Virus record (IMG/VR): IMGVR_UViG_3300021197_001203
Span: 1 to 64,000 of that record
Reading direction: 5' to 3' (one strand)
DNA length: 64,000 nucleotides
Origin: a virus
Under the pieces are notes generated by a model, which saw only the letters and a list, made by a program, of their open reading frames with translations, searched no databases and was not told where the DNA came from. The translations under genes were made by a program, and so were the position numbers. Below are positions 16,898 through 40,008 of this stretch, piece by piece. Each line of letters begins with the position of its first letter. The stretch's first letter is position 1.

Positions 16898-16921
16898 ACT
16901 CCCTACGAATTACAATCCTAT

Positions 16922-18715
16922 TCAAGACTTGTCCTCTTCTTTGCCTCTTTGACCATCAATATTTAATCTTTTTAATTTTGCATTGGCTCTTTTTAATGCA
17001 GGGGGGTCATCAGTATTTTTATTGCCTTTAGATGATATTGGTGAGCCTTCGTTATGAATTACTCTATCACCTGCATTGCCCTTTACCGAAGACCGTGTTT
17101 GGGATATTCCCCCTTCTCTAGCTGGGCGTATATCAGTACCTCTTGTTGTGACAGCAGCAGCAGCATCAGGGACACTGCCGTGAATAGGGTCATTAACATC
17201 TCTTTTGAATAATCCAAAAGCACCCATATCCTGCTTTTGCACTCCAGCACCCCCGCCAGCAGCTTGTTGTTCGGCCATCGCAGCCTCCTGTGCTGCCACT
17301 TCTTCGGGGTCCGGTTCCGCATAATCGAAAGTCAAATATGCGTCATCAACTGTGTCCCTCAATTTAGCATCAAATCCTGCTTGCTTCATTTGCATCATAT
17401 TGCGGATAGCCATCTCATCTCGGCGTAATTGCATTATCTCATCCTCTTCTTCGTGAGGCGTTAATGTTATTTCCCATTCAGTTATACCGAATGCTTCTAA
17501 CAATGCAGGGAATAAAAGACGGTTGTATATTGATTGTGAAAAGGACACTGATCGGTTGCTGACAACAATTTGCATACCTTCGTTATTTAATCCGCCTCCG
17601 GTCACATCATTCATAAATACATTAGATACACCATAAAAGGCGGATATACGTTGTCTGATGTCATCTTTAATTGGTATGTATTGTAGCTCTTCTAATGTGT
17701 CCATCATACGAACATACTCTATTCCTCCCCTACCTGATTCCGTCTCAACACCTATGGTTGGCACATAGTTAGGGTCACGTTCAAGATGTTCTTGGATATT
17801 CCTTGCTGTTCTCTCAACAGTTTCCATGTTTGATGATTTAATGACCATAATACCTCTTGGCATTCTTCTCTTTTGATATGCGGAATAGACATAGTTATCC
17901 ATAGCAATCAATGTATTGACTTGTCTCCACATAGTAGCAACTGGACTACGCCCATACAATTTTGAAGGGGACCATTTACTAAGATGAATAATTTCACCTT
18001 CAGTATAACATTGCCCGTTGCCCACTCCAGCTAAGTTCATGTAATGTATTGGCACTACATTCATACCAGTAGTTGGACATTTATCATTAGGGTCCGAAGT
18101 GCGGAACGACCTGTCAACAAGGCTGGTGTATTGATTACCCCCTCTTACCCCTCTTTTATCGGACAAAATACGCATAAATATAGGGTCTGCTCTCGATATT
18201 TCCTTAATCCTAAAAAACGTGGCCGCCTTTGTTTTAGGGTCAATAAAATATTCCTTTGTCACTACGAGATAGGCATCATCGACAATATTCAAATCCATTT
18301 CTAATTCTCTTAAAACATCAATAAACGTCTGCCCCATTTCATTCGTACTCCTGAATACCATGTCTGCATATTCTATTTGTGAACGGTCAGCTTTTCTCAT
18401 TTCGCCCCCCGTTTCAGGGTCGCTTTCATATTGTTGTCCGAACTCTTGATCAGTGTCTATACTTTTTACAACAAACTTTGGTTTCCATGCCCAGCCTTTA
18501 CGAAATGTTTCAACACATAAATGATTCAATATTGACCTTAAAACCATGCACTCGTAAGATGCTGCATACAAAGCAGGGATAGTAATACCCTGAAGTAAGG
18601 CAGGTTCTTGAATACCTGATGTAAATAAGGGCATTGAGGGTTTAGGACTAGAATGCCTCTCCATGTCCATTCCCACTGCTGAGAATAATCGTTCCATTCT
18701 TTTTTTATCGACCAT
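16922..18715 (-). CDS. Portal protein
   Basis: 597 residues, usual length for portals of tailed viruses. The early part (ALYAASYECMVLRSILNHLC then FRKGWAWKP) matches the start of phage portal proteins, where a conserved helix precedes an aromatic R-x-G-W-x-W strand. The middle has the helical wing/stem region (DNYVYSAYQKRRMPRGIMVI, DDIRQRISAFYGVSNVFMND). The last ~120 residues are low complexity (Ala/Gln/Gly then Lys-rich) and probably disordered. The gene lies directly after TerL and one intermediate gene, as expected for the packaging ring at the capsid vertex. Confidence 0.88.
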   Translation of the reverse strand: MVDKKRMERLFSAVGMDMERHSSPKPSMPLFTSGIQEPALLQGITIPALYAASYECMVLRSILNHLCVETFRKGWAWKPKFVVKSIDTDQEFGQQYESDPETGGEMRKADRSQIEYADMVFRSTNEMGQTFIDVLRELEMDLNIVDDAYLVVTKEYFIDPKTKAATFFRIKEISRADPIFMRILSDKRGVRGGNQYTSLVDRSFRTSDPNDKCPTTGMNVVPIHYMNLAGVGNGQCYTEGEIIHLSKWSPSKLYGRSPVATMWRQVNTLIAMDNYVYSAYQKRRMPRGIMVIKSSNMETVERTARNIQEHLERDPNYVPTIGVETESGRGGIEYVRMMDTLEELQYIPIKDDIRQRISAFYGVSNVFMNDVTGGGLNNEGMQIVVSNRSVSFSQSIYNRLLFPALLEAFGITEWEITLTPHEEEDEIMQLRRDEMAIRNMMQMKQAGFDAKLRDTVDDAYLTFDYAEPDPEEVAAQEAAMAEQQAAGGGAGVQKQDMGAFGLFKRDVNDPIHGSVPDAAAAVTTRGTDIRPAREGGISQTRSSVKGNAGDRVIHNEGSPISSKGNKNTDDPPALKRANAKLKRLNIDGQRGKEEDKS

Positions 18716-20015
18716 TCATCAACACCTTTTCTTTCATCTTATCAAATCTTTCAATAGAAACATTCTTGCTTTTTAGAAATGTGACTTGTTCCTTCCTATT
18801 TAATGAATCATGAACCATAACAATCAAAGCGTCTTTATCACCAACAAGTGCTTTAGATAACATAAATGCCTCATGCGAAGAGTCCGTGATGTATGGTGAA
18901 GCCATCTCAACTGCCTTAATAACTCCTTTCTCTCCTTCAATACATAAACCCGAAGACGTTGATTTTACACAATTCATATCCATTTCGTTATTCAACGCAT
19001 CGGCATACCACGGCGCAGTAGGGGCATTAAACCTCATTTCAATACGTGGTTTCATCCTACTATCAAACCTTACCGAAGAATTAGTTTCGATCAGGCCAGC
19101 TAAGAACCTGCCCGCATCTTTTAGAATAACATCTCTTCGTTTTATATCATAGAACAATCCTCTTCCTAAAGTTTTACTAACCTCTCCCACTGATATAATG
19201 TCATAGAGAAAACCATGCGATTTAATCAAGGAGGATATTTCTCCTGTGCTGGCTGAGACACCATTTATTTTCAAAGTCTGAGCATTCAAAGCCCCTTTCT
19301 TGAACAAGTGTCCAGCACATTCACTTAATATTGTCCTCTCTCTAGGAGATAATCTTAGATTTGCATCTATTACTGATTTCCATGCTGTGTATGATTCCTG
19401 CTTTGCTAGAGAGTCATCAGCAGCCTCCCAAACCTTTACAAATCTTCTAAACGGTATTCCCAACCTGTTTGAATATTTATTCAAGCTATCGTAATCAACA
19501 TCAGTCAAAGGTAAATGTTTTACAAGTTCAGGTGAAACTCCGGGGAATGAGGATAGAATCGCTTTCTTTTCAGCAATCAACAAAGGGTATAATGCGTCTA
19601 ATGCTTTGAGTTCATTGGATTTGATAAATATTGAAGCCATTTCAGAACCTGTCATTCCAAAATTATCCACGAACCAAGTTCTGTTTATGTCTATATCTGA
19701 TCTTAGAAAACCATCTTCAGACGGTGCTGTCAGGTCTCCGTCCATCTCCGGCGCACTCGTATGAGAACTGTCCATTCCTTCAATGTCGGCCCCTTGACCT
19801 TCTTCAGTCTTTGGTTTCTTCATAGCTTGAGCATCTGTTTTTTGGGCCTCCGCTAATTCCGCCTGAGCTTGTGTCACCTTATTCATCGCCATTTCAGTTA
19901 GCTTACCGCCTACAACCCCTGCTGCTGCTGTTCCAGCGGCTGCTAACATTGGATTTTTTCTTATCGAATCAGCAAGCGTTTCCACGCCAATTTGGGTTTC
20001 TAAGTATTTACGCAT
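18705..20015 (-). CDS. Unknown protein between terminase and portal
   Basis: 436 residues. Residues about 20-45 are small and hydrophobic (MLAAAGTAAAGVVGGKLTEM), which could be a membrane or peptide-like segment, followed by an Ala/Gln helix and an acidic linker. The rest is a globular domain with DSSHEAFMLSKALVGDKDAL near the C terminus. It overlaps TerL by eight bases and the portal by eleven, so it is tightly coupled to packaging genes. No family recognised. It may be a portal-associated or ejected protein. Confidence 0.6.
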   Translation of the reverse strand: MRKYLETQIGVETLADSIRKNPMLAAAGTAAAGVVGGKLTEMAMNKVTQAQAELAEAQKTDAQAMKKPKTEEGQGADIEGMDSSHTSAPEMDGDLTAPSEDGFLRSDIDINRTWFVDNFGMTGSEMASIFIKSNELKALDALYPLLIAEKKAILSSFPGVSPELVKHLPLTDVDYDSLNKYSNRLGIPFRRFVKVWEAADDSLAKQESYTAWKSVIDANLRLSPRERTILSECAGHLFKKGALNAQTLKINGVSASTGEISSLIKSHGFLYDIISVGEVSKTLGRGLFYDIKRRDVILKDAGRFLAGLIETNSSVRFDSRMKPRIEMRFNAPTAPWYADALNNEMDMNCVKSTSSGLCIEGEKGVIKAVEMASPYITDSSHEAFMLSKALVGDKDALIVMVHDSLNRKEQVTFLKSKNVSIERFDKMKEKVLMNGR

Positions 20016-21378
20016 CCATCCACCCTAATCTCTTCTGCCATGTGGGACCATCTAATATCATAATATTTTCACGATATTCCTTTGTAGCTTGAACCGCCAA
20101 ACCCAAAGCTAAAACCATATCGTCATGAGAACCTAAACTCTCCATGCGACCATTTTCTAACATAGTAAAATTAGACAACTCAGTGAGTAGTGCGTTCATA
20201 TGCCTTCTTGTCCCTTCATGATTCTTGTAAGGTATAATCAGGTGTTGCTGTTCAAAATGAAGTTGTAAGGTGTGCATTATAGCCTCTTTTTTCATACGAG
20301 ACATATTGAATGGTTTAATGGGTAAATCGCTTATTTCTTTTAGCACCTGATTAAATGCCATAGCAAAATTGTTTGTCTCCAATTCAATTATAACAGGGTT
20401 AAATCTAGCATTCAATTCAATTATTTTATCTATCTGATGACTAAAGTCCATACCTTTTTCGTGATGAACATGAATTATTCTCTTATGTCTATTTTCATCC
20501 ATTCCTATAACCATCATACAAGTGTAATCAGCAGATCGGTTAGCACTAATCGCCGGGTCCCAACCAATGTAATAATTTAGCTCTTCTTCAGATTCAGGAT
20601 AATATGACAAAGCTAAACTTTGGTCCTTTACACGTTCAAGCATATCTTCAGGAAAAAGACTGGCTTCACTGGCGATTGGTTTACACAGGTACTCACGGGT
20701 AAATGCTATTGAAGTCATTTCCCCCCTTCTAGCATTCAAAGCTTCAAGAGACCATCTTTCAGGCCACAAGGGGTCTCCTGTTGCTTCATTAATCGCAGGG
20801 TACTCTCCAACGACATAACCGTCCAAAGCCTTCAATTCAGAATACAAATCAGTAAATGAAAACGGAGTCCCGACTATACATAATCTAGCTGTATGGTGAA
20901 GAACTGGTAGTAATGCGGTATAAAACCAAGTCGATATTGCTTTCAGCTGCGTTTGCGCTTCACTTGACAATATGTCATCTAAAACCACTATGTCAGGGTG
21001 CGCCCCTCTCACTGCTTTGCCGACTGACATAGCACGTATGGAGGATTTATTTGTCATCTTGAACAATTGCTTTGCCCATCCTCTTTTGGGTTTTAGATGC
21101 TGTAATGCGGGGGTTGTTTCTATTAATTCATTCATTTTACCCATGTGGTCAATGGACTGATGCTGACTGTGGCTGAAAAATAAAACTTCTGTATTTGGCC
21201 TGTAAGCCATTTTCCATAAAAGATAACATCTGAAAAATACTGATTTACCATGATCACGACTGGCTATTACACAAGTTTTAGTGTGGCCTTCTGACATCTC
21301 ATACCATTCTTTATGAAAATCCGCCAATTGAAAACCGCAAATATCTTCAAAAAAGAATCTGAAATCTTTACGCCCCAT
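20008..21378 (-). CDS. terL: Terminase large subunit
   Basis: 456 residues with both terminase domains. ATPase: Walker A SRDHGKS at residues 40-46, Walker B DIVVLDD at about 129-135, coupling region CIVGTPFSF. Nuclease: YYIGWDPAISANRSADYT near residue 270 gives the first acidic residue, and VIIELETNNFAMAF and SHDDMVLALGLAV supply later ones. It packages viral DNA through the portal and cuts the concatemer. The ATG at 21378 leaves a 37-base gap to the previous gene; the frame stays open upstream without another ATG. Its neighbours are portal and head genes, as expected. Confidence 0.95.
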   Translation of the reverse strand: MGRKDFRFFFEDICGFQLADFHKEWYEMSEGHTKTCVIASRDHGKSVFFRCYLLWKMAYRPNTEVLFFSHSQHQSIDHMGKMNELIETTPALQHLKPKRGWAKQLFKMTNKSSIRAMSVGKAVRGAHPDIVVLDDILSSEAQTQLKAISTWFYTALLPVLHHTARLCIVGTPFSFTDLYSELKALDGYVVGEYPAINEATGDPLWPERWSLEALNARRGEMTSIAFTREYLCKPIASEASLFPEDMLERVKDQSLALSYYPESEEELNYYIGWDPAISANRSADYTCMMVIGMDENRHKRIIHVHHEKGMDFSHQIDKIIELNARFNPVIIELETNNFAMAFNQVLKEISDLPIKPFNMSRMKKEAIMHTLQLHFEQQHLIIPYKNHEGTRRHMNALLTELSNFTMLENGRMESLGSHDDMVLALGLAVQATKEYRENIMILDGPTWQKRLGWMDA

Positions 21379-21415: not shown

Positions 21416-23158
21416 TCACTCAGAATCCCACCCCCTCGGTAGTAAGCTGGTATTGCTGAAGCTTGTATCTTCTTTTGGCATCATTGAAGGTAGCATACTA
21501 AGGTCGTCTCCCTCCCGTGTGTCAAATCCCGATTTTGCTAAAATATCATGAGCAGGATTAGAAACAAAAACTGGGCCATCGGTTGTATCGGCCCAAGCCC
21601 CAGCTTCAACTGCTTGCTCAGTCGATACCGGAGGCGGAGTATTATTCACTCGGAATGCTTCAGGATTATGGAATGGATTAGCAAACGGGTTAGCAACTGG
21701 GGTCCATGTTTCCGATTTAATTACTTTACCTGTTTTTTGATTTATCGCTTTACTTCCGGGCATAGGGAAATACAATGGTAAAGGTACTGTCCTATTTTTC
21801 GTACCTTCACTTTGACGCTTAACTTGGTCAACTGTGGTATATGGTGAAGCGATGGATGATATAGACCTTGAAGTGGTTTGCCCTAATGCTTTATTTGGTC
21901 TTTTTAGACTGTCTAAAGGAACACCTTCAGGGCGGTCAGGGTGAAAAGCAACAGTTATCGCTTTACCATCTTTGTCTTTACCTCGGCCAACAGTCCACCC
22001 TGTTTTCCCGTTTAGTTTTACTGGATTGCCTCTTACGTCTAATACTGGTATTGGTTTGCCTTCGCCCCAAGCCTCAAGTGCTTGTTCGGGATTATCAGTC
22101 ATACTGGTCTGAGCTTTACCCCTATTGAGTTTATTTACTGATTCAGGAAGTTTGAAGGCCGCAGTATCGGTGTAATCCATATCAGGGTTTTCTTCTAATG
22201 TCGCTCGATCCTGCTTTGCTTGAAGTTCTAAAAGTTGATTTTCTTTTCCTTCAATGACCGACTTTTTCCTCATTTGGTTAATTTCCTTTGGCGTAGTGTT
22301 CATTTTATCTGCTAACAGCTTAACCTCGGATGTTCGATTAAATTGATTTAATTGGTCTATATGTGCATCCGAACCCCCGGCTGCGAGTTTGCACAACGTA
22401 GCAAAGGACCTACCCACATCTTCAGGGTTATCTCCATTCATCATATCTATCAAAGTCAAAGCGTTGATTTTGTTTTCAGCATATTCTTTTTCATCATCTT
22501 GAGGCACAGTCATATTAGGTGTCGAAACCCCATTCCTGCCGTCCTCCATACCCTGTGTCTTAGCATCAACTATTGGTGAACCAAGTTCTTCGACCTTTTC
22601 TGCATCATCCGGCTGCGGCATAAAATGGTGATTTGTTTCATCGCCATGTTGATCAGGTTCATACCCTTGATTGAATCTGTCATCGCCACGGTCATCGGCA
22701 TATTCTATCTTAGGCTCGTCTTCCTCAGCTTCGGGTGTTTTCATGCCGTCCCCCGCCTTTGTTTTTTTAGGGGTTTTTTTTGGTTTTGGTATTTCCGCTA
22801 GAGTATCAGGTTTAGTCTCAGGCTCGACCACCGATTCTTCGACTTTTTCTTCGGGAATATCCGCTAATGTATCGGGCTTAGTCTCAGGCTCAACCTTCGG
22901 TTCTTCAATTGCGGGTTCTTCAATTGCGGGTTCTTCAATTGCGGGTTCCTCGATTACGGGTTCAGGCAAACGAAACTTGTCCCTCGGATTTATTTGACCC
23001 ATAAGAGTATTAGCCACTTCATCACGATAAGCCTCTCTCAACTGAGCTTGCCTACGAGCATTCCTAAAATCTTCTATCAGTCCCTTTTCAAAGTCTGATT
23101 CGCCAACGTCTTGTTTGGCTAAATCCCAAGCCTGATCGAATATATCATCTGAAGGCAT
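21416..23158 (-). CDS. Tagged, low-complexity protein upstream of terminase
   Basis: 580 residues from the ATG at 23158; an ATG at 23188 would add ten residues but would lengthen the overlap with the previous gene. It begins MPSDDIFDQAWDLAKQD, a version of the recurring FDxAWxxVK tag. Residues about 60-130 are Pro/Glu-rich, with EEPAIEEPAIEEP and repeated ETKPDTLA units, and are probably disordered. The remainder is polar and contains a globular-looking part (KTGWTVGRGKDKDGKAITVAFHP - a short beta region). No enzyme motif seen. Likely a virion-internal or minor virion protein. Confidence 0.65.
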   Translation of the reverse strand: MPSDDIFDQAWDLAKQDVGESDFEKGLIEDFRNARRQAQLREAYRDEVANTLMGQINPRDKFRLPEPVIEEPAIEEPAIEEPAIEEPKVEPETKPDTLADIPEEKVEESVVEPETKPDTLAEIPKPKKTPKKTKAGDGMKTPEAEEDEPKIEYADDRGDDRFNQGYEPDQHGDETNHHFMPQPDDAEKVEELGSPIVDAKTQGMEDGRNGVSTPNMTVPQDDEKEYAENKINALTLIDMMNGDNPEDVGRSFATLCKLAAGGSDAHIDQLNQFNRTSEVKLLADKMNTTPKEINQMRKKSVIEGKENQLLELQAKQDRATLEENPDMDYTDTAAFKLPESVNKLNRGKAQTSMTDNPEQALEAWGEGKPIPVLDVRGNPVKLNGKTGWTVGRGKDKDGKAITVAFHPDRPEGVPLDSLKRPNKALGQTTSRSISSIASPYTTVDQVKRQSEGTKNRTVPLPLYFPMPGSKAINQKTGKVIKSETWTPVANPFANPFHNPEAFRVNNTPPPVSTEQAVEAGAWADTTDGPVFVSNPAHDILAKSGFDTREGDDLSMLPSMMPKEDTSFSNTSLLPRGWDSE

Positions 23159-24365
23159 CTCTAATTGCCCCCGTAGTATTCTGTTCACGAATTGACATTA
23201 AATCACCACGGTACTCATAATGTTTAGCGAGTGTCATACTCATTTCCATTTCATATTCGGTATCAGACCTTAATAATCTGTTTCCTATATTAGCTGCACC
23301 CTGAGCTATTTTATTTGCCCCGTATTCCGTAGCAGCACCGACCCCGGCCACTGCCCCTGATAGCCCCAATGTCCTACCAAATGTTTTAGCTGCATTGTTT
23401 ACTGATTCATTACGAGTTGTTTTGATACTACCATCGGGGTTAGTCGTGGATGTTTCTGATACATCTTTACCCGGAACTAAACCCCTCCAGCCCGGTATTT
23501 TTATACCGCCTGAATCTGTTCCGCCCAAAGCTTGGTCTTTCCAATTCCCTAACTTATTTCCTGCTGGTTTATTGACCGTCACATTTTCTTGAGGGGGGTT
23601 AGGGGTTTGGCCTCCCTCGTTCCTTATATCATCTGTAATATTGAATGGGTCTTGATAGCCGCTAGCAGCGTCAAATGCCTGTTGGCTTTCGGGGTCTGCT
23701 AAAGTTCTAAGCGGTCCTTGACCTTCAGGGCTTCCGCCCGTTCCAAGAGCCTTCATTTTTCTTCGATTCGCCGCTGTGAGTTTTCGATTTGCTTGATCTT
23801 TATCTTGGTTTTCTCTATATCCCGCTTGTTCTTCAGGTGTCATATTTAGATTTTTTTGCTGAAATCTAGCCGCATTTGCGGCAGTAGGCATTTTGAAATC
23901 CATAGCTGCACCTACACGGTCTCCTATACCGCTAAAAATACCAGTCTTCACTCTTTGAGGCGTGGGTTCTCCCGGTTTTCGCATAAAATCTTGTACGTTT
24001 GTCCGAGCTTGATCCATATCCTCCCGAAGCCTATCCAGCCCCGGTGTGCCCGTTGGTTGTCCCGCTAGATTATCTAAACCCGGCGTAGCTGGTTGTCCCG
24101 CTAGATTATCTAAACCCGGCGTAGTGCTTTCATTTTTAGGAGGTATAGAAGTAGTAGGTTCAACGGCTGGTTCAATACCAGCAGCATCGTTTAATCTTTG
24201 TTTGTAGCTGGATTGGTTTGTTTTAGTTTCTTGATTGAGTCCATCAGCTTCGCCTTTTGCTGGTTTGGGCATAGCGTCTATTTTTCTATTTCTTAACCCT
24301 GTGCCCATTTGACTTGTGGTCTGCGGTGAAAACTTAACAACATTCCAAGCTTCTTCAAAACTCAT
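23145..24365 (-). CDS. Tagged, low-complexity protein with C-terminal hydrophobic segment
   Basis: 406 residues, beginning MSFEEAWNVVKFSPQ, a clear version of the recurring tag at the extreme N terminus. A short tandem repeat (TPGLDNLAGQPA, then TPGLDNLAGQPTG and TPGLDRL) occurs near residue 75. Much of the protein is Gly/Pro/Asn-rich. A small-residue hydrophobic stretch (LSGAVAGVGAATEYGANKIA) near residue 335 resembles membrane-active segments of ejected virion proteins. It overlaps both neighbours. Confidence 0.65.
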   Translation of the reverse strand: MSFEEAWNVVKFSPQTTSQMGTGLRNRKIDAMPKPAKGEADGLNQETKTNQSSYKQRLNDAAGIEPAVEPTTSIPPKNESTTPGLDNLAGQPATPGLDNLAGQPTGTPGLDRLREDMDQARTNVQDFMRKPGEPTPQRVKTGIFSGIGDRVGAAMDFKMPTAANAARFQQKNLNMTPEEQAGYRENQDKDQANRKLTAANRRKMKALGTGGSPEGQGPLRTLADPESQQAFDAASGYQDPFNITDDIRNEGGQTPNPPQENVTVNKPAGNKLGNWKDQALGGTDSGGIKIPGWRGLVPGKDVSETSTTNPDGSIKTTRNESVNNAAKTFGRTLGLSGAVAGVGAATEYGANKIAQGAANIGNRLLRSDTEYEMEMSMTLAKHYEYRGDLMSIREQNTTGAIRDAFR

Positions 24366-27566: not shown

Positions 27567-28016
27567 TTAGACCTCCTGTTCTCTTTGAGACCTTAATCGC
27601 TCATTACTTCTAATCGTCTTGAAAGAACCTGATACTCTCAATGGTAGGTTAAGATACCAACTTGAAATGATCGGTGTCCTTGCATATGACTTTGCTAAAC
27701 CGATATAAGCATTTTTTAAGTCGCCAAAATGTTTCATAACCTTAGTAAAGGACATAGAATTATCATTATCGTCCAAATAAGAATACACTGCAAAACGAGT
27801 GGACATATTTTCAAAATACAAATCCTGAGATAATTTCTCAGCCTGTTCTTCTAACCCGAAGGGTATCATTGATTCGGCCCATTCTTTGACTACAAAATCA
27901 AGTCCTTCAACCATTATGAAAAAGTCATCCCACGTTTTAGGGAAATCCCCATGTAGGTACGATTCGTAAGGCGTATCACGAAGCTGAAGCTGGACTAAGT
28001 TTTTGTGTCCCGTCAT
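27567..28016 (-). CDS. Unknown helical protein
   Basis: 149 residues, aromatic-rich and globular (KTWDDFFIMVEGLDFVVKEW, VMKHFGDLKNAYIGLAKSYA). No motif recognised. It overlaps the small-terminase candidate at its start and lies two bases before the basic protein gene, so it belongs to the same transcription unit. Confidence 0.55.
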   Translation of the reverse strand: MTGHKNLVQLQLRDTPYESYLHGDFPKTWDDFFIMVEGLDFVVKEWAESMIPFGLEEQAEKLSQDLYFENMSTRFAVYSYLDDNDNSMSFTKVMKHFGDLKNAYIGLAKSYARTPIISSWYLNLPLRVSGSFKTIRSNERLRSQREQEV

Positions 28017-28720
28017 TCCATCACCCCTGCTTCTGCCAACATTGTTCTAATCACACGCCATTCATCGGGTGCTTTTTCTGAAAAGTATTCCTGCATAATC
28101 GATATGACAGATATGCTTTCACTTTTGTCAATCTCCTTTAGACGGTCCATCCATTTCGCCAATTCACTTAATGTTTCTCTTACTTCTCGGTGCATTTTGA
28201 TAGCTAAGTCTAGGTCTTTAGTCGAAACCATATCGGGATGATTGTGCATTTCTTCGTCAAGGCGGTCAAGGTGTAAAGAAAATATCCTATCGAAACGATT
28301 CATATTTCTCTCTATTCGGTCAAGGGAATCATGAGCTGTTTTCAATGCCGTTGGTATAAGTTCTATATCTGCTTGTTTTTGTATCAATGGTTTTATGTGA
28401 GACTCCATATGGGTACTAACTGCTTCTTCACTGACACCCAATTCTTCTGCAAAATCAATTATTGATGCTCTATGGTCAAGAATAGCCGACTCTATATCTG
28501 CTCGATCAACATTCGTGCATATCGGGCAATCATCATTACTGTCGTTAGAAAAATCCCCAGCGTGTCTTCTCATGTGCCTATGTGCGGAACCTGAAGCCCA
28601 CCCTTGATCTTTATCCAAATCACTAGACACCAGCGTCCCAGCTCTTATCTGCAACTCTAAATGGTCCCGTTCAGGATGATTACAAAAGTCGCAATTATTA
28701 CGAGTCCTCCGACCACCCAT
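28013..28720 (-). CDS. Zinc-finger/HTH protein, candidate small terminase subunit
   Basis: 235 residues. The first ~115 consist of two related halves: a CxxC pair (CDFCNHPERDHLE and CPICTNVDRADIE), a helix, then a helix-turn-helix-like segment ending in paired histidines (SAHRHMRRHAGDF and SEEAVSTHMESHI). This looks like a duplicated Cys2-His2-type zinc-bound HTH. A long C-terminal coiled coil follows (RIERNMNRFDRIFSLHLDRL). Terminase small subunits recognise DNA with an HTH and oligomerise through helices, and the gene lies upstream of TerL, though six genes away. A DNA-binding regulator is the alternative. Confidence 0.45.
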   Translation of the reverse strand: MGGRRTRNNCDFCNHPERDHLELQIRAGTLVSSDLDKDQGWASGSAHRHMRRHAGDFSNDSNDDCPICTNVDRADIESAILDHRASIIDFAEELGVSEEAVSTHMESHIKPLIQKQADIELIPTALKTAHDSLDRIERNMNRFDRIFSLHLDRLDEEMHNHPDMVSTKDLDLAIKMHREVRETLSELAKWMDRLKEIDKSESISVISIMQEYFSEKAPDEWRVIRTMLAEAGVME

Positions 28721-28743: not shown

Positions 28744-29175
28744 TTATTGTGTCTTTTCTTTATATTTGTTCATATGTATGCCACAATAGCCTTTAGACGA
28801 CTCTGCCGACATTCTTCTTTTACACCTGCTGCCGTCAGCGATTGTCCCTATACACCTCTCTTCATCGGTAGGATTCCGATAACATTCAACACATACTCCA
28901 GTTTTGTATTTAGATTTCTTTTTCAAATGTATTCCACACCTGCTGCATACCCTCATTGTTGGTTTCCCGTCTTTAGGAGGGGTAGGTAAAAACGAATCAG
29001 CTAAACCATGTAAATCGTCAAGAGTAATTTTTCCATCATTGTTTCTATCCAATGTGTTTTTGGCCAAGTGTTTTACGTCTTGAAAATTAACTTTACCATC
29101 TTTATTGTAATCAAACGGGGAATAAACTTGTTGGGTATTAGAGTAATAGGGATTTCTTTGTGCCCCGAATCCCAT
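28744..29175 (-). CDS. EF-hand/dockerin-like and zinc-ribbon protein
   Basis: 143 residues. Two D-x-D/N-x-D-G loops in tandem, DYNKDGKVNFQDV and DRNNDGKITLDDL at about residues 23-57, form a dockerin-like calcium-binding pair. A CSRCG...CVECY ribbon near residue 80-100 is followed by CIGTIADGSRCKRR and CGIHM, a second zinc-binding cluster. Dockerin-like pairs typically mediate protein docking. The partner is unknown. Confidence 0.65.
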   Translation of the reverse strand: MGFGAQRNPYYSNTQQVYSPFDYNKDGKVNFQDVKHLAKNTLDRNNDGKITLDDLHGLADSFLPTPPKDGKPTMRVCSRCGIHLKKKSKYKTGVCVECYRNPTDEERCIGTIADGSRCKRRMSAESSKGYCGIHMNKYKEKTQ

Positions 29176-29189
29176 TGAAGGGGATGGGG

Positions 29190-29456
29190 CTACCGAAAAG
29201 CCGCATATTGTCTAACAGCTAAGAAGAATGTTAGGAAAACACCCATTATGGCAATCATAGACCATGTTGGGTCCATCGTAGGACCTTTCCATATCATCAC
29301 TGAGGTGATCAAAAGCATGAATGATATAATAAAAATCATCGTTGCACTTTCGACTAACATCTTATTTGGTGCAAACATTTCCATTGTAGTGTCAGTCATT
29401 GTAGTCCCATACGGCCTACTGTTGTATTGATTTCTTTCATTTGTTTTGTCCTGCAT
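29190..29456 (-). CDS. Small membrane protein, two predicted transmembrane segments
   Basis: 88 residues. A polar N terminus of about 30 residues is followed by two hydrophobic helices (ATMIFIISFMLLITSVMIW and WSMIAIMGVFLTFFLAV). No family recognised. It is part of a cluster of three membrane-type proteins around the GTPase gene. Possible lysis, envelope-interaction or DNA-entry role; not resolved by sequence. Confidence 0.6.
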   Translation of the reverse strand: MQDKTNERNQYNSRPYGTTMTDTTMEMFAPNKMLVESATMIFIISFMLLITSVMIWKGPTMDPTWSMIAIMGVFLTFFLAVRQYAAFR

Positions 29457-29465
29457 TCTAACACC

Positions 29466-30092
29466 TCAAAGTAATGCGGCTGCACCTGCACCCATAGCAC
29501 CCATGCCACCCTGCTGATTCATTTGTTGACCTAAGACGTTTCCTAGAAGACTACCGAAGAAACCGGGTTGGTTCTGACCATTCATCAAAGGGTTGTGGGC
29601 TTGTAATAGCATAGATGTTTGTTGTTGGTTCATTTGTAGCTGGTTATTACAAGACGTTTGTAGTCTTTGTAAAGTCAGACTAAGGTTCTCAGGCGACATA
29701 GTGACCATATTTTGAGGCATGGATGAAAGATCGAGTGTAATTTTGCCTTCTGCATCTGTCAAAAAAGTCACATTACTAAAGAAATCTTTCATTGAAAGCA
29801 TTATTATTTCAGTAAATAAATCCATAAAAGTACCCATGTTGGATGAAACCATGAATGATGAAACAGGGTCATAATACTGTAATAGGCGTGATGTAGCCAT
29901 TACAGGGTCATTCGCCATCTGTTGCATAAACGGATTTTGCATCTGCTGTTGCATCATCATTGGGTCCATACCGCCCATCATATTGTTAGTCATCATTCCT
30001 CCAAAGCCTCCCGCTGCTGCACCAGCACCATATGTGCTAGGTGCCCCGAATTGCTGTGTTGGTGTCGTTGTGTCTTTACTGAACCAGCCCAT
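29466..30092 (-). CDS. Met/Gln-rich virion-type protein
   Basis: 208 residues. The N-terminal ~70 residues are Gly/Ala/Met/Gln-rich (MTNNMMGGMDPMMMQQQMQN), and the C terminus returns to Gln/Gly/Met/Ala. The middle (FMDLFTEIIMLSMKDFFSNV) could form an amphipathic or membrane-associated helix. No family. It begins MGWFSK, with a positively charged start. Likely membrane-associated or aggregation-prone virion protein. Confidence 0.55.
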   Translation of the reverse strand: MGWFSKDTTTPTQQFGAPSTYGAGAAAGGFGGMMTNNMMGGMDPMMMQQQMQNPFMQQMANDPVMATSRLLQYYDPVSSFMVSSNMGTFMDLFTEIIMLSMKDFFSNVTFLTDAEGKITLDLSSMPQNMVTMSPENLSLTLQRLQTSCNNQLQMNQQQTSMLLQAHNPLMNGQNQPGFFGSLLGNVLGQQMNQQGGMGAMGAGAAALL

Positions 30093-30108: not shown

Positions 30109-31062
30109 CTATTGTGTTTCTAACCCTTTCGCAGTATTTACTACTGGGGGAACTGGATTTTGTTGTTGCTGACCTGCAAGGCCAATCATATTTCGCTGCG
30201 CCATTGCGTCTTCAATTTGTAAAGCTCGCAGGTCAAAAGTCACAGTCACAAGATCAGATATGCCTGTAATTGGATTGGGGTATTGCGTCAAAGTAATACC
30301 CTTCTTGTGTTTAGCATCTTGTTGTATCAAGTTAAAAAACGGCTCATACTTTTTGAGCGATTCAGTTGTTGAACGGTTTGAATTGCTTGAACCAACCATT
30401 CCAGCTGTTAAGGTGGACAAACCCGGAACTTTGAGAAACTTAGTGCCTTTGCTGACTGGTTTGAAACCATCTTCGGCCATTTGGTCCTCCTGAACCATTT
30501 TCTTTAATGTGTGATATATGTGTAAATGGGCAGGGCACAGCGTACTATTCATTTGGTCGCCGTGATCGCCTCTAGTCCTTGCATGAGGTTTTACCGCCTC
30601 TTTCGTAGTTTCATCAAACCAATACAAATCAGCTAAAGACAGATTTATGTCGTAATCAACAATCTGAGCATAGTCGTTGTCCCCCTCAAGGAACCTTCTA
30701 ACATCGACTCCACAACAAGCGCACTCAAATGCTGCATTGTATCTATAAATCCTGTAAAGCCCTAGATTGTAGCTTGGTGGCCTCAAAGCTCTCCTTAACT
30801 TTTTTAGATTCTTTTTGCGGGCCTTTTTAGGGTTCTTCGCATTAGTCACTAATTGTATCTCGACTGTTGGTACGACAGCTTCTTCAAAATTACCCACTGA
30901 ACCCGCACTCGCAATTTCGGCCCTTTGTTGTGTTTTCAACAATTGATAATTTACTCCAGTAGTCGCTGCTAACGCCTTTAATTGTTCATCATTTAGACCC
31001 GATAATCTAGTATTACTATTCCATGAAGGCATGGACGGCATAAAGCTCGGCATGAAGTTCAT
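30109..31062 (-). CDS. Unknown protein with Cys/His metal site
   Basis: 317 residues from the ATG at 31062 (MNFMPSFMPSMPSW), preceded by CAGGGT. An ATG at 31146 would add 28 residues overlapping the GTPase gene and was not chosen. Contains FECACCGVDVRRF near residue 130 and CPAHLHIYH near 190, a plausible HNH-like or other zinc site (C-x-x-C then C-x-x-H...H), plus a basic run KNPKKARKKNLKKLRR. An HNH-type nuclease is possible but the catalytic His-Asn pattern is not clear. Confidence 0.55.
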   Translation of the reverse strand: MNFMPSFMPSMPSWNSNTRLSGLNDEQLKALAATTGVNYQLLKTQQRAEIASAGSVGNFEEAVVPTVEIQLVTNAKNPKKARKKNLKKLRRALRPPSYNLGLYRIYRYNAAFECACCGVDVRRFLEGDNDYAQIVDYDINLSLADLYWFDETTKEAVKPHARTRGDHGDQMNSTLCPAHLHIYHTLKKMVQEDQMAEDGFKPVSKGTKFLKVPGLSTLTAGMVGSSNSNRSTTESLKKYEPFFNLIQQDAKHKKGITLTQYPNPITGISDLVTVTFDLRALQIEDAMAQRNMIGLAGQQQQNPVPPVVNTAKGLETQ

Positions 31063-31105
31063 ATTAACCCTGCCACCCCTGTCAGCCAAATAAACATACT
31101 GCTGA

Positions 31106-31834
31106 TTACAGGAGTTCAACAATAGATAATAGCACTTTCTCGACATTTACGCCATGTTGTGCCGACATAGCGTCTATTTCAGCCCTAACTCCCGCCTTAC
31201 GGAGTCTTTTCAATTCGCCTCTAAAGGGCGAGATTATAGGGTGTTCTCTCGCTAAACCATTATCCCAAAGTACCTGTGCTTGAGGGGACCACCATAAATC
31301 CATTTTATTAGCAACAATTAACACTAATTTGGGCATATATACTGACTTAGCAGTTTTCTTTGCCTTACGAGATATTTCAGATGATACATCTTTACGTGTT
31401 ATATTGTCCACTAAATAAGTAAAGGATGCTAAAGCATCTTTTAGAAATGCTGGCGAAGTGACTACTCTATGATCAATCATAAACACAACAATTTCGACTT
31501 TTCTTCCAAACATATCTTCGATCCATAAATTACGGAACTGTGCTTGTCCCGCTATGTCAGAATTAGAAATTGGAATCCTTTCTTTTTTCCATCTAATCAA
31601 TTTCCGGTGTGCTTTGGGCTGAACGGGTTTGCCGTTTATTATCGGGTGCGATGTTCTCATTTCAAGGGGTATTGGGTCTATATCACCGGGGACTGTCAGA
31701 TATTGGTCTAGTGTAGTCTTACCCGTCATACTAGGGCCATATATGCCCACCCTGAATGGCCTCATTATCCTGTATATCTTCTGTAAGGCATTAACTGAAG
31801 CTAATAGAAGATGCCCTGCGATAACCGCACTCAT
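31106..31834 (-). CDS. Arf/Ras-like small GTPase
   Basis: 242 residues with the full order of GTPase motifs. G1/P-loop GPSMTGKT at residues 33-40; G3 DIAGQ at 93-97, followed by FRNLW, close to the Arf-family D-x-G-G-Q...R-x-L-W; a hydrophobic strand IVVFMIDH; G4 NKMD at 176-179 preceded by KLVLIVA; and G5-like SAQHGVN at about 224. Length suits a Ras-superfamily domain with insertions. GTP binding is well supported; the biological role is unknown. Arf-like GTPases usually act at membranes, and this gene is flanked by predicted membrane proteins. It is unusual in a tailed-virus structural region. Confidence 0.75.
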   Translation of the reverse strand: MSAVIAGHLLLASVNALQKIYRIMRPFRVGIYGPSMTGKTTLDQYLTVPGDIDPIPLEMRTSHPIINGKPVQPKAHRKLIRWKKERIPISNSDIAGQAQFRNLWIEDMFGRKVEIVVFMIDHRVVTSPAFLKDALASFTYLVDNITRKDVSSEISRKAKKTAKSVYMPKLVLIVANKMDLWWSPQAQVLWDNGLAREHPIISPFRGELKRLRKAGVRAEIDAMSAQHGVNVEKVLLSIVELL

Positions 31835-31845
31835 GCCTTAGCCTC

Positions 31846-32067
31846 TCAAAGACGACCTTTGAGGTATTCCCACAATTGTAATGGTGAAGTCCCCAATTCA
31901 TCTAAAATTATCAACACGGCAAAGGTCCCAGCCACACCACCGATAAGTGCCACCGTTGTTCTGACCCATCCGGCCATACGTTCCATTTTTCGTTCATATG
32001 AGTTTTCAGCTAATATTTGCGCCATTTCAGCAGCTTGTCGTTCCTGCCGTGTTGTAAATGGCCACAT
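31846..32067 (-). CDS. Small single-pass membrane protein
   Basis: 73 residues: charged amphipathic helix (RQERQAAEMAQILAENSYER), then one transmembrane segment (TTVALIGGVAGTFAVLIIL) and a short polar tail. Resembles holin- or membrane-anchor-sized proteins but has no diagnostic motif. Lies just upstream of the GTPase gene and may work with it. Confidence 0.6.
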   Translation of the reverse strand: MWPFTTRQERQAAEMAQILAENSYERKMERMAGWVRTTVALIGGVAGTFAVLIILDELGTSPLQLWEYLKGRL

Positions 32068-32082
32068 TTTCTATCACTCCAA

Positions 32083-32550
32083 TCACTGAGGGGGTTGGTT
32101 GTCTTCAGTGTTAGCGGGTGCATTAGGGAGGCCAAAAAGCTGTTGGCCTTCAGCCTGTGCTTGCATTTGCGCCATTTGTTGTTGCATTTCCCCATAATAT
32201 TGTTGTTTTTGCATTCTTCTATTCTGCATTTGCATTTGATTTCTAAACCATTTGTCGTAGCTGGCTTCTTTTGAAAACTCGGCTCTCATGGCCATACTGT
32301 CTCTTACACCACCTACTTGGAATAAAACCATAGCTATACACAAAAATCCGAATGAGATCAAACCATACTGAATACCCATCTCTCCGGCCCCAGCATCAGG
32401 TAAATACCAACCTTGATGCGACAAACCCACAGCCATACCTGTCAACAGGGATTGCCATAGCAACATTGCTATTAAATTAACATCGACTCTATTCGATGCT
32501 GCTGCGTCTGTTGGCGGCTGCCACATTGGTGTTCTTTGTCCCTGATTCAT
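32083..32550 (-). CDS. Membrane protein with two transmembrane segments and Gln-rich coiled tail
   Basis: 155 residues. Transmembrane helices at about residues 25-45 (NLIAMLLWQSLLTGMAVGL) and 62-82 (LISFGFLCIAMVLFQVGG). The C-terminal half is a Gln/Met-rich helix (NQMQMQNRRMQKQQYYGEMQ). Its ATG shares one base with the stop of the ribbon-helix-helix gene (TAATG). Function unknown; part of the membrane/GTPase cluster. Confidence 0.6.
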   Translation of the reverse strand: MNQGQRTPMWQPPTDAAASNRVDVNLIAMLLWQSLLTGMAVGLSHQGWYLPDAGAGEMGIQYGLISFGFLCIAMVLFQVGGVRDSMAMRAEFSKEASYDKWFRNQMQMQNRRMQKQQYYGEMQQQMAQMQAQAEGQQLFGLPNAPANTEDNQPPQ

Positions 32551-36322: not shown

Positions 36323-36682
36323 TCAGGGTGTGCGTCCAGCTCTTCTAAAGCGATCAATGAGTCCTTTTGAACCAAGAGCTTGGGATGTGCTATCAGGAAT
36401 TGATGGTCCCTGCATTGTATCAGTACGTGCATATTCAGAAGCTGGTTCATTGTCAAACATATCCTTGAGCCTTTCATACTCATCTTCAATACCATCATTA
36501 TCTGTTTCTAATATGTTAGCCATAACCTTTCGATTATGACTTTCACCGTCAGTTGTTGATTTCATATCTGCAAATCTTTTAGGAACAGGTCTGCCGCCTT
36601 CTTTGAGTGAATCCAGCTTACTATTAAACTTCTCACCGAAGTCAGCCTTAACCACATTCCATGCTTGATCAAATGTTGTCAT
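36323..36682 (-). CDS. Tagged small protein
   Basis: 119 residues beginning MTTFDQAWNVVKADFGEK, a clear tag. The rest is polar and probably extended, with an acidic central helix (DNDGIEDEYERLKDMFDNEP) and a basic C terminus (LIDRFRRAGRTP). No family recognised. First gene at the convergent junction with the plus-strand Gp88-like gene. Confidence 0.65.
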   Translation of the reverse strand: MTTFDQAWNVVKADFGEKFNSKLDSLKEGGRPVPKRFADMKSTTDGESHNRKVMANILETDNDGIEDEYERLKDMFDNEPASEYARTDTMQGPSIPDSTSQALGSKGLIDRFRRAGRTP

Positions 36683-36683
36683 T

Positions 36684-37004
36684 CTATGACCTACCGTAGT
36701 ATTCTTCTTCTGAACCGGGGTGCATTTCGTTTAATGCGGCTTGTGCCCCAACAATCATATCTTCAACCTCTGACATTTCACCGCAGCATTGTTCTGCTAA
36801 TGTAGTTGCTTGGCTAAGTAGTCTGTGTAATTCCTGCACTTTTTTGCCCATGTCTTCCATAGGAGAGCCATCGCTGAGTTGTCCGTTTATTGAACCACTA
36901 AACTCATCTAATTCATCTATATCAATACCATACTGCTCAAGTGTTGCTGGGTCATACCCACCTGACTCTTTTGTTATGTTCCAAGCTTTATCAAATGAGG
37001 ACAT
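36684..37004 (-). CDS. Tagged small acidic helical protein
   Basis: 106 residues beginning MSSFDKAWNITKESGG, a tag variant. The remainder is acidic and helical (VQELHRLLSQATTLAEQCCG, EMSEVEDMIVGAQAALNEMH). A strong AGGAGG ribosome-binding sequence lies just before the ATG at 37004. One base separates it from the next gene. Function unknown. Confidence 0.65.
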   Translation of the reverse strand: MSSFDKAWNITKESGGYDPATLEQYGIDIDELDEFSGSINGQLSDGSPMEDMGKKVQELHRLLSQATTLAEQCCGEMSEVEDMIVGAQAALNEMHPGSEEEYYGRS

Positions 37005-37546: not shown

Positions 37547-38410
37547 TTATATTCTTTTGGAAGGATAACGCCGAATCGTTTTATCTGCCATATTAGGGGT
37601 TGAGGGGGTCGTGAAATCGCCGAGGAATGAGCCGTCTGCATAGTAATCGAGCATTCTCATGCCTTCCGTTGAAGGATAGTTGGGTGCATGGTAATTACCG
37701 GGGCCTATGTCATTTGTGTTATCAGACCCAAAATAATATTCCAGCTCGTCCAAAAGCTGGGCATTGACCCCTCTTTTTCCTCCAAACTCAAAGCTAGTCT
37801 TTGGGTTGCTCTTGGCTTCCTCATACGCATCCCTCGCAAGCTGGTCCCACCAATTTTCAAGCTTGTCATCAAAGGCACTCGCATTTGCTTGTCTTCTTGT
37901 AAGAGGCCCTTGTAATATGACTCTTTCACGATTCGGCCACTTTCCCACGTATGCAGTTCGGTCCCATTCATGTCCAGTCCCTGCCCCTTGTGTGTATTGT
38001 GAATCTTGTCCCTTTAACCAGCTCATATCGACTCTAGGCATTTTCATAGCATTCACAGGAAGGCCATCCACAGTCATCTGTTCGGCTGGAAGAAGGTATT
38101 TCTCAGCAACGTCCGGCAGGACGTTCTTCATCCTGTCATATGTGAAAGCCTCCCAAAAATCGTCTTTTTTACCCGGAGATTCATCATTAAGCTGTTCTAA
38201 TAATCGCCTCCCTCCAGCATCCAAATTAGGTACTTTAGCCACAGAGCCGGGGTCGTCCCGAATGTCGAAGACCCTTCTTTGGCCTCCTTGATCAAATGCG
38301 TCTCCTAAGCCCAACTTTTCCGTAGCTATCCGAGAAAGCTCGGTCTCTCTTTCTAATGGGGTCGTATCGTCAAACTTAACTATCTCCCAAGCTTGGTCAA
38401 ATGCGGTCAT
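37547..38410 (-). CDS. Tagged protein-kinase-like protein
   Basis: 287 residues beginning MTAFDQAWEIVKFDD. A kinase-like layout follows: Gly-rich strand DQGGQRRVFDI, the strand SVAKVP with a Lys at the ATP-anchoring position, a helical segment (DDFWEAFTYDRMKNVLPDVA), then near residue 235 DIGPGNYHAPN, resembling the catalytic loop D-x-x-x-x-N, and MLDYYADG, resembling the metal-binding D strand. This is distant and some motifs are imperfect, so activity is uncertain. If real, it is a small Ser/Thr-kinase-like effector. The start overlaps the next gene by ATGA. Confidence 0.5.
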   Translation of the reverse strand: MTAFDQAWEIVKFDDTTPLERETELSRIATEKLGLGDAFDQGGQRRVFDIRDDPGSVAKVPNLDAGGRRLLEQLNDESPGKKDDFWEAFTYDRMKNVLPDVAEKYLLPAEQMTVDGLPVNAMKMPRVDMSWLKGQDSQYTQGAGTGHEWDRTAYVGKWPNRERVILQGPLTRRQANASAFDDKLENWWDQLARDAYEEAKSNPKTSFEFGGKRGVNAQLLDELEYYFGSDNTNDIGPGNYHAPNYPSTEGMRMLDYYADGSFLGDFTTPSTPNMADKTIRRYPSKRI

Positions 38411-38712
38411 TGATGGTCCTCCATCCTATTGTATCGCATCATTACCTCTTCGGGGGTAAGTCCTGAATCAGTCTCTGTATTTTCCCAATCCGTGTCACAC
38501 ACCCCACAACCACCCATTTTCGCACAGCAATCATTACAGATGTAATTTCCCGGTGTCCCACAGGCGTGTTCAGCCATACTATTCATACCGCACAACGGAC
38601 AAGGGGTATTTTCATTGTAAACGTCATCATCCTTCGACCTATCACGATTAGGGTCGATAGATATGGAAAAGTCCTCTTTTACAAGATTCCAAGCTCGATC
38701 AAAGGCGGTCAT
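38407..38712 (-). CDS. Tagged zinc-ribbon protein
   Basis: 101 residues beginning MTAFDRAWNLVKEDF. Two Cys pairs (CPLCGMNSMAEHAC and CNDCCAKMGGCGVC at about residues 38-75) suggest a two-zinc treble-clef or RING-like module. An acidic C terminus follows. Linked to both neighbours by four-base overlaps. No specific family recognised. Confidence 0.65.
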   Translation of the reverse strand: MTAFDRAWNLVKEDFSISIDPNRDRSKDDDVYNENTPCPLCGMNSMAEHACGTPGNYICNDCCAKMGGCGVCDTDWENTETDSGLTPEEVMMRYNRMEDHQ

Positions 38713-39101
38713 TCATAATCCTCCATTCTATCTCGGTATGCCTCATAGTCAATACCATATGTTCTTTTAGGGCCAACCGTACTACCGTTTTCAATTGCCT
38801 GATTAAGATCGAATGGCTTGCCATCTCCAAAGAAACCTTCAATCTCCATTGAATCAGACATTCGTTTATCAACCCACGGATGAATACATTTGCTACATAA
38901 TTTTGGAATACCCTCAACTATGTTGTTGATGTCGCTAAAACATCGCTCACATTCACTCGGCCAGTTTACACTTGGGTCGGGGTCAAGCGGTTCTTGAAGC
39001 AATAATTGGTTCTCATTCGCAATTCTTTGTATTTCTTCATCGGAAAACAACCGATGATATACGGACTTCACAATATCCCATGCTCGGTCAAATGCGGTCA
39101 T
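38709..39101 (-). CDS. Tagged zinc-finger protein
   Basis: 130 residues beginning MTAFDRAWDIVKSVYHR. A CERCF...CSKCIHPW pattern at about residues 52-78 suggests a single zinc site. The rest is acidic and polar. It ends RMEDYE, similar to the RMEDHQ end of the neighbouring gene at 38407, which suggests duplication. Overlaps both neighbours by four bases. Confidence 0.65.
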   Translation of the reverse strand: MTAFDRAWDIVKSVYHRLFSDEEIQRIANENQLLLQEPLDPDPSVNWPSECERCFSDINNIVEGIPKLCSKCIHPWVDKRMSDSMEIEGFFGDGKPFDLNQAIENGSTVGPKRTYGIDYEAYRDRMEDYE

Positions 39102-39721
39102 TGTTCCGCCCTCCTTTGCATTTCTTCAAGGCTCAATTCGGGCGAATGCCCTGTTTCATCGGGATCATCATCAAACCAAGCCAATCTTCTTTTTGGTCTA
39201 TCCACAGGCAGGTTTGCTCTTGCCAATGAATCAAGGTGTCCTCTTTCATAAGTCGGCCAATTTGTAGGTTCATTCACTTCAAAATCACTTTGATGCACCA
39301 ATTCTAAGAACTCCGGTGGTATGGTGACGTTTGAGAATAGGTGCGGTGAACCCCTGCCGTCATATCCTTCACGCATAGGGAATGATGGATCAATTCGTAT
39401 CATTGCAGGTGTAGCCACATCGTCTTGAATGTAGGGAACGCTAAGGTTTGGGTCACGCAGAAGATGAAGCCCTTGCTCATGCGCTCTTTTGCGTTGTGGC
39501 ATATTTGCTGCCATCATACCGTAAAGATTGGCAATGTTGGGATATGATGATGCGAACACCTTTGGCCCAGATCCGTATGTGTCTTTTCCTCCGATGAACT
39601 TGTTGCTATCCTCATACGTTCCGGGCTTCAATCCTTCACGCATTATGTTTTCAACACGATCTGATGTTGTTCCGTGATATGGCATCTTCACGATAGCCCA
39701 TGCGGTATCAAAGGCGGTCAT
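39098..39721 (-). CDS. Tagged ADP-ribosyltransferase-like protein
   Basis: 207 residues beginning MTAFDTAWAIVKMPYHGTTS. Immediately after the tag, YHGTTSDRVENIMREGLKPG (residues 15-34) matches the first strand and helix of the PARP/RNA-phosphotransferase-type ADP-ribosyltransferase fold (H-G-T...I...G-L-x-P). GPKVFASSYPNIANLYG at about 52-68 fits the second motif with an aromatic residue. A later Glu/Gln motif is not certain. Such enzymes move ADP-ribose from NAD to proteins or nucleic acids; phage T4 carries one (Alt) in its head. This is family knowledge; the activity here is inferred. Confidence 0.55.
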   Translation of the reverse strand: MTAFDTAWAIVKMPYHGTTSDRVENIMREGLKPGTYEDSNKFIGGKDTYGSGPKVFASSYPNIANLYGMMAANMPQRKRAHEQGLHLLRDPNLSVPYIQDDVATPAMIRIDPSFPMREGYDGRGSPHLFSNVTIPPEFLELVHQSDFEVNEPTNWPTYERGHLDSLARANLPVDRPKRRLAWFDDDPDETGHSPELSLEEMQRRAEQ

Positions 39722-40008
39722 TCCATGCCCTCCAATTCATCGTTCAGATTCAATTCAACCATAGCATCAGGATTTTCCCACCATTCAGTCAATTGTTTGG
39801 CAAACTCATTCGCTATCGAAGGCGACATCGTTTTTATGAAATTGAAAAATTGTTGCATATCTCCTAATCTCTTTGCATACATATCTGATTCATTGATGAT
39901 AGAAAGCATGGAAGCATTATCCGCGTTTCGTTTTCTGAGGAAGTTAATCTGCATCTCATAGTGTGGTGAGTTTTTCACCAAATCCCATGCTCGGTCAAAT
40001 GCGGTCAT
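39718..40008 (-). CDS. Tagged small helical protein
   Basis: 96 residues beginning MTAFDRAWDLVKNSPHY. The body is helical (QINFLRKRNADNASMLSIIN, MQQFFNFIKTMSPSIANEFA) without motifs. Linked to both neighbours by four-base overlaps. Function unknown. Confidence 0.65.
   Translation of the reverse strand: MTAFDRAWDLVKNSPHYEMQINFLRKRNADNASMLSIINESDMYAKRLGDMQQFFNFIKTMSPSIANEFAKQLTEWWENPDAMVELNLNDELEGME

Follow-up and report, generated by a model that had tools for sequence, protein, structure and literature searches.

A new family of Ras-superfamily-type GTPases in a conserved gene block of magrovirus-like archaeal viruses, and its possible role as a membrane switch

Membrane-shaping small GTPases are central to eukaryotes and are known from a few archaea. 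For viruses of bacteria or archaea, we know of no description of such a gene. Giant viruses do encode small GTPases, among them the mimivirus Rab, which was reported as acquired from unicellular eukaryotes and for which a role in virion membrane formation has been proposed (PMC11915834). Among archaea, Haloferax requires the small GTPase ArvA/OapA, which has an amphipathic helix at its N-terminus, to form vesicles, and overexpression of this haloarchaeal protein leads to hypervesiculation (Mills et al. 2024, PMC10927574). Knockout of its Zn-ribbon partner, ArvC, raises vesiculation, whence this protein was proposed to be a GAP (Mills et al. 2024, PMC10927574). Magroviruses, whose hosts are Poseidoniales, have genomes of 90-110 kb with opposed arms (PMC12999244, PMC10768690). 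Apart from the family described here, no membrane-shaping small GTPase of prokaryote viruses was found in PHROGs, among the top BFVD matches or in INPHARED. Two GTPase queries returned no relative from INPHARED, a search from which magroviruses seem to be missing. The literature covered holds no paper pairing a magrovirus with a GTPase, the founding magrovirus papers, in which an unnamed annotation is possible, lying outside its scope.

The locus studied here was found in a 64-kb window (the whole stretch of DNA that was analysed) of a 108,315-bp virus record. The following context genes lie on its minus strand:

8793-9959, minus strand: SU10-type major capsid protein (MCP; context gene)
16922-18715, minus strand: portal (context gene)
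20008-21378, minus strand: terminase large subunit (TerL; Pfam Terminase_6C, 8.8e-10)

The plus strand of the window encodes a UvrD-type helicase and a thermosome (Cpn60), and the GC skew flips at about 46 kb. In its size, MCP (HK97-type in the Magrovirales), TerL, thermosome, opposed replication and morphogenesis arms and link to Poseidoniales, the source virus fits the description of the Magrovirales. That link comes from the Poseidoniales single-cell genome (SAG) AG-422-I20, which contains a near full-length, magrovirus-like contig of 106,262 bp (L095; CACGHY010000002.1). The GTPase and TerL of this contig are 59% and 84% identical, respectively, to those of the window virus, indicating that a closely related virus had been captured inside, or together with, a cell of the Poseidoniales. 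The contig is, in its own right, direct physical evidence for a Poseidoniales host.

The GTPase gene lies on the minus strand; a plus-strand reading of 31106-31834 was ruled out, stops occurring throughout. Its features are as follows:

31106..31834, minus strand: GTPase ORF, 242 aa (ORF call, family alignments, AlphaFold2, Foldseek)
31763..31831, minus strand: N-terminal helix, residues 2-24, candidate membrane-binding element (AlphaFold2, pLDDT 56-79 there)
31715..31738, minus strand: G1/P-loop GPSMTGKT, residues 33-40 (GKTT in 80/80 relatives)
31652..31657, minus strand: switch-I candidate R60-T61 (G2 Thr; 80/80, with the G2 assignment inferred from position)
31544..31558, minus strand: G3 DIAGQ, residues 93-97 (D and G 80/80, Q 56/80)
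31298..31309, minus strand: G4 NKMD, residues 176-179, guanine specificity (N, K and D 80/80)
31157..31165, minus strand: G5 SAQ, residues 224-226 (S/A-A/S/T-Q/K/R variants)

The initial annotation had read four motifs in this protein, and all are present in the order claimed: GPSMTGKT, DIAGQ with the following FRNLW (residues 93-104), NKMD and SAQ. An alignment search recovered relatives from at least 231 IMG/VR stretches (a single-protein query gave 13 loci), and 80 of the stretches were kept. Conservation was assessed in 80 distinct sequences, which include a second virus lineage. Residues G33, G38, K39, T40, T41, R60, T61, D93, G96, W104, N176, K177 and D179 are found in 80/80, and D107, D121 and R123 are likewise invariant; the motifs are thus more than a chance resemblance. 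GKTT, R60-T61, the G3 D and G, W104, D107, D121, R123 and NKxD are also invariant in a 40-row non-redundant alignment reaching down to 40% identity. The initial annotation had staked its reading on conservation in homologues. For NKMD this is borne out, N176, K177 and D179 each being kept in all 80. For DIAGQ it holds for D93 and G96 but not for the Gln, the position being Q in 56 sequences, D in 12, H in 8 and E in 4. SAQ proved not to be a fixed motif, with ATK, ATR and SSQ variants among the 80. In Ras and Arf, losing the G3 Gln usually slows intrinsic hydrolysis; in the viral family, where 24/80 sequences lack this residue, catalysis may be slow or depend on a partner or on a different residue.

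AlphaFold2 predicts a Ras-type G domain for the 242-aa protein (pLDDT 81.8, pTM 0.80). When this model was compared with the PDB using Foldseek (prob 1.00, TMt 0.55-0.69), 1083 matches were obtained at E<=0.001, led by RhoD, Rac3, RhoG, Rab43 and Rab33. A viral structure library gave, as its top matches, proteins of giant eukaryotic viruses, namely Ras/Rab/Ran GTPases and elongation factors. Weak matches to the P-loop families AAA_24 and RecA could mean that the protein is an ATPase, a kinase or an AAA protein whose P-loop gives it a chance likeness to GTPases. However, NKxD and DxxG are each present in 80/80 relatives, and the top 50 PDB fold matches are all Ras-superfamily GTPases (Rho, Rab, Rac, Ras); on these grounds of motif and fold, the non-GTPase reading is rejected as highly improbable. 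Indeed, the features expected of the Ras-superfamily type, G1 GxxxxGK[ST], G3 DxxG and G4 NKxD, occur in this order, each in 80/80. Judged by its motifs and predicted fold, the viral protein is a genuine Ras-superfamily-type (TRAFAC) G domain, for which GTP binding and hydrolysis are predicted. The predicted N-terminal helix is present in all viral members compared, with hydrophobic moments of 0.24-0.50. In the window GTPase this low-confidence helix is moderately hydrophobic and amphipathic (hydrophobic moment 0.44), and its Kyte-Doolittle maximum of 1.25 lies below 1.6, the threshold above which a segment was called transmembrane (TM).

Placement of this domain within the superfamily is less simple. 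Pfam Arf (PF00025) is the best family for the window GTPase, yet its score of 19.3 bits falls short of the gathering cut-off of 22.3; it matches 25/40 GTPase members (best E 2e-4), ahead of Roc, MMR_HSR1, GTP_EFTU and Ras. By sequence, the best match in the PDB is the entry 8oun, annotated as GTP-binding (E 1.2e-4 with one protein, 2.1e-6 with the profile), an Asgard Arf-like protein. The viral D-I-A-G-Q-x-x-F-R-N-L-W after strand 3 resembles the D-(V/L)-A-G-Q-x-x-F-R-x-(L/M)-W of the Asgard Arf-like proteins compared. In contrast, the viral proteins lack the Arf switch-I PTxGxN, have GPSxTGKT rather than GLDxAGKT at G1, often lack the Gln (24/80) and branch separately on a long stem. In a maximum-likelihood tree, 22/22 viral GTPases form a single clade (100/100), which has no supported sister, is set off by a stem 2.6 changes per column long and falls within neither the Arf-like nor the Rab-like Asgard clade. 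This tree, comprising 22 viral and 36 Asgard GTPases, shows separateness and not ancestry, because eukaryotic, bacterial MglA and ArvA references are missing from it and the alignment is thin at such distance. A phylogenetic check had been proposed in the initial annotation; run with Asgard GTPases, it set the viral proteins apart and nested them in neither Asgard group.

A second comparison concerns MglA, a polarity GTPase of bacteria, whose P-loop starts with G-P and has GKTT, and whose G3 takes the form T-V-P-G-Q. The viral P-loop shares both the G-P start and GKTT with MglA; the viral G3, in contrast, is DxxG and not T-V-P-G-Q. A T-V-A-G-Q form is present in one Asgard protein (L166). No Pfam match to Roadblock/LC7 (MglB), the MglA partner, was found among six scanned neighbours of the viral GTPase. 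The Rab and Ras proteins of giant viruses are likewise small GTPases encoded by viruses, but they show only 10-20% identity to the viral GTPase in the fold search. The membership in Arf, Ras or MglA families drawn earlier from a D-x-G-G-Q-type switch is thus not upheld, given the Arf score below cut-off, the 100/100 clade of its own and the Gln lost in 24/80. The viral GTPase is best read as a new family and not as an Arf.

The GTPase lies within a conserved block of minus-strand genes, for which occurrence is given among 86 compared loci that were chosen by GTPase presence and are in part near-identical:

32083..32550, minus strand: 155-aa two-TM protein with a charged/Gln-rich tail, probable coiled coil (84/86 loci)
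31846..32067, minus strand: 73-aa single-TM protein directly upstream of the GTPase (Kyte-Doolittle; 51/86 loci)
30109..31146, minus strand: Cys/His-rich protein, probably zinc-binding, directly downstream of the GTPase (86/86 loci)
29466..30092, minus strand: 208-aa protein with Met/Gln-rich low-complexity ends (85/86 loci)
29190..29456, minus strand: 88-aa two-TM protein (Kyte-Doolittle 2.29 and 1.88; 85/86 loci)
28744..29175, minus strand: EF-hand-like repeats and Cys motifs, optional (Pfam EF-hand_1, 2.1e-7; 48/86 loci)
28013..28720, minus strand: Cys/HTH-like protein, probably DNA-binding, which ends the conserved block (weak HTH matches; 85/86 loci)

The order at the locus is thus 2-TM, 1-TM, GTPase, Cys/His, 208-aa, second 2-TM, EF-hand/Cys and Cys/HTH-like, followed by late genes towards TerL. 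The three membrane proteins pointed out in the initial annotation (29190, 31846 and 32083) indeed have 2, 1 and 2 Kyte-Doolittle segments above 1.6, and this company is retained across relatives, as seen for the first (84/86) and second (85/86) two-TM proteins. The Cys/His ORF probably has its true start internally; C142, C204, H207 and H212 of its product are invariant. This protein has no Pfam or PDB match, and its predicted structure (pTM 0.48) retrieved no PDB fold. As a separate observation, EF-hand-like repeats are fused to Cys motifs inside the late operon in about half of the relatives.

An unbiased check was made with records fetched by TerL rather than by the GTPase, 22 of which were searched; the GTPase is present in 14. 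Among the negatives, G080, G082, G083 and G091 end before the expected place, G095, judged from the layout of G093 and G094, ends at that place, and the TerL similarities of G096-G098 reach just 21-25%. Since the eight negatives are truncated or TerL-distant, 14/14 informative TerL records have the GTPase.

The initial annotation had placed the gene in the structural arm. This is correct as to strand, which is shared with TerL, portal and MCP, but the GTPase belongs to a separate module, ~10 kb upstream of TerL. The main rival to the membrane switch proposed below is a switch in virion assembly or packaging, in which the GTPase would act with late head/portal-vertex factors and GTP hydrolysis would time prohead assembly at the membrane or packaging. 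Consistent with this, the GTPase shares not only its strand but also its late block with TerL, portal, a protease-like ORF and the MCP, and the fixed order GTPase-Cys/His-p208-tm88-p235-p630 leads towards TerL. However, in two of the TerL-fetched records (G093 and G094, behind L246 and L248), at TerL identities of 36-37%, the GTPase is found ~15 kb away on the other side of TerL, and the second lineage has the trio of 2-TM, GTPase and Cys/His genes without a magrovirus-type TerL or a Terminase_6C match. We regard the virion-assembly switch as rather unlikely.

A further feature of the minus strand is an N-terminal tag, mostly M(T/S)xFDxAWxxVK, which is shared by 18 ORFs with otherwise unrelated bodies, 17 of them within 6473-45246 of the window and one at 76474-78258 of the virus record. 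A few carry an FExSW or FDxSW form instead. Examples, all on the minus strand, are 39718-40008, 39098-39721, 38709-39101, 38407-38712, 37547-38410, 36684-37004, 36323-36682 and 23145-24365. The tag has the look of a shared signal for targeting or packaging, e.g., a capsid-cargo tag.

The second lineage is represented by L099 (G002:C22), a 101-kb contig from what is labelled a Flavobacteriales MAG; it carries the 2-TM, GTPase and Cys/His genes in the same order. Its GTPase shows 31% identity over 238 residues. With profiles built without L099, hhalign matched the trio at 96.8% (2-TM), 100% (GTPase) and 99.95% (Cys/His), each the best among the contig's ORFs. The syntenic gene reached just 7.6-25.5% against the 208-aa protein, for which a homologue in the second lineage is not claimed. 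Beyond the trio, the sole BLAST similarity of this contig to the window virus is the thermosome; it further encodes a HerA-type ATPase, a family-B DNA polymerase, an archaeal TFB, RNase H and an Rpb1-like RNA polymerase protein. The Rpb1-like gene (G002:C22:36300-41156; L127 and L110/L111) is an open frame of about 1620 aa that spans two fetched stretches and contains Pfam Rpb1 domains 1-5. The magrovirus TerL has no match in the L099 genome. Conserved proteins of the lineage that are capsid candidates are encoded at L112:14860-16737 and 16761-17759.

The ATPase of L099 is common to four IMG/VR contigs at 63-70%, in which Pfam Terminase_6C has no match. Used alone as a query against IMG/VR, the L099 GTPase found no relatives, whereas its ATPase did. 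The GTPase is present in 5/5 contigs of the second lineage and the Rpb1-like gene in 4/5 (the IMG/VR ones lie behind L118, L120 and L121), and the order 2-TM/GTPase/Cys-His was confirmed at loci L123 and L126 besides G002:C22. The trio has therefore been either transferred or retained as a unit among viruses whose modes of DNA packaging seem to differ. That it occurs in a HerA-ATPase lineage for which no TerL was detected speaks against a role confined to tails or terminase. A more far-reaching reading, which we consider unlikely, is that tailed archaeal viruses and archaeal viruses of the HerA/RNA-polymerase lineage have exchanged a whole membrane-remodelling trio, with which both bend or bud the host membrane.

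Cellular sources of the GTPase were sought in a host-type set, namely the genomes given as relatives of SAG AG-422-I20. The GTPase family profile matched 0/39 of these genomes, its sole match in the 40-genome search being the SAG's own virus contig. An Arf-type match was found in 0/30 Poseidoniales-type genomes, against 24-45 per genome in Asgard relatives, and capture from the host was rejected on these counts. OapB (ArvB) was found in 0/60 host-side genomes, with Haloferax volcanii positive as a control. A search of genome contigs gave five matches (L095-L099), of which L095-L098 have the virus synteny and L099 has the trio. Owing to this synteny, the matches filed under 'Asgard', 'Maricaulis' and 'Cytophagaceae' MAGs (L096-L098) are read as viral contigs and not as cellular genes. 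Transfer from Asgard was rejected as well, the viral GTPases not being nested in the tree. No recent host donor is visible.

These searches also bear on whether the GTPase might be a host-takeover factor, titrating or imitating a GTPase pathway of the host (for division, secretion, vesicle release or defence), and not a part of the particle cycle. Invariant residues outside the G motifs (W104, D107, R123) could bind partners for such a purpose. However, the GTPase is tied to virus-coded membrane partners rather than standing among isolated early genes, and a search of host-type genomes found neither such a GTPase nor an Arf-type match, so that no pathway for it to imitate is apparent; this explanation is improbable.

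Among the closest known systems is ArvA. Like ArvA, the viral protein is a small GTPase with a (predicted) amphipathic N-terminal helix and Arf as its best Pfam match, and its operon includes a candidate zinc-binding partner, the Cys/His protein directly downstream. In contrast to ArvA, it is encoded by a virus, and its partners are TM proteins and a different Cys/His protein. OapB/DUF2073 (ArvB) and DUF2072 (ArvC) have no Pfam match in the six module proteins or in 33 Cys/His homologues. With a similar layout and no OapB or ArvC match, the GTPase may work like ArvA or Arf without being one.

We therefore favour, tentatively and with a probability of roughly 0.45, the reading that this virus-specific Ras-superfamily-type GTPase would serve, by analogy, as a membrane-recruited switch in the manner of Arf and ArvA. 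In its favour are the invariant G motifs, the predicted fold, the candidate N-terminal helix, the fixed neighbourhood, the recurrence of the trio in the second lineage and the precedent of ArvA. The mechanism that we infer, from attachment to the membrane and hydrolysis to the parts played by the partners and the stage of the cycle served, is as follows. In the GTP state, the N-terminal amphipathic helix would lie in the cytoplasmic face of the membrane, next to the small 155-aa and 73-aa TM proteins. The Cys/His (possibly zinc) protein would act as effector or regulator, as ArvC may; both its zinc binding and a GAP role draw on this analogy, since neither a GAP fold nor a zinc family could be recognised in it. 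GTP hydrolysis would then release the complex. The most likely use would be a membrane-bound step of the virus cycle, in which assembly is docked to the membrane, vesicles form or the virus leaves the cell, and the role in entry, egress or membrane reshaping suggested at the outset is plausible. Because the host-side set lacks Arf-type GTPases and ArvB, the virus would bring its own switch. Counted against the membrane switch are the N-terminal helix, which lies below the TM threshold and was modelled with low confidence (pLDDT 56-79), the G3 Gln, which 24/80 lack, and the operon, which runs on into genes towards the terminase and fits virion assembly equally.

The GTPase is found in every sufficiently complete relative of a common ocean archaeal virus, and its partners are shared by another lineage. 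Together with the lack of a detected host counterpart, this ubiquity and sharing suggest an undescribed membrane step in archaeal virus cycles. If the exchange of the trio as a module were true, it would mean that viruses of prokaryotes possess an Arf-like vesiculation machine.
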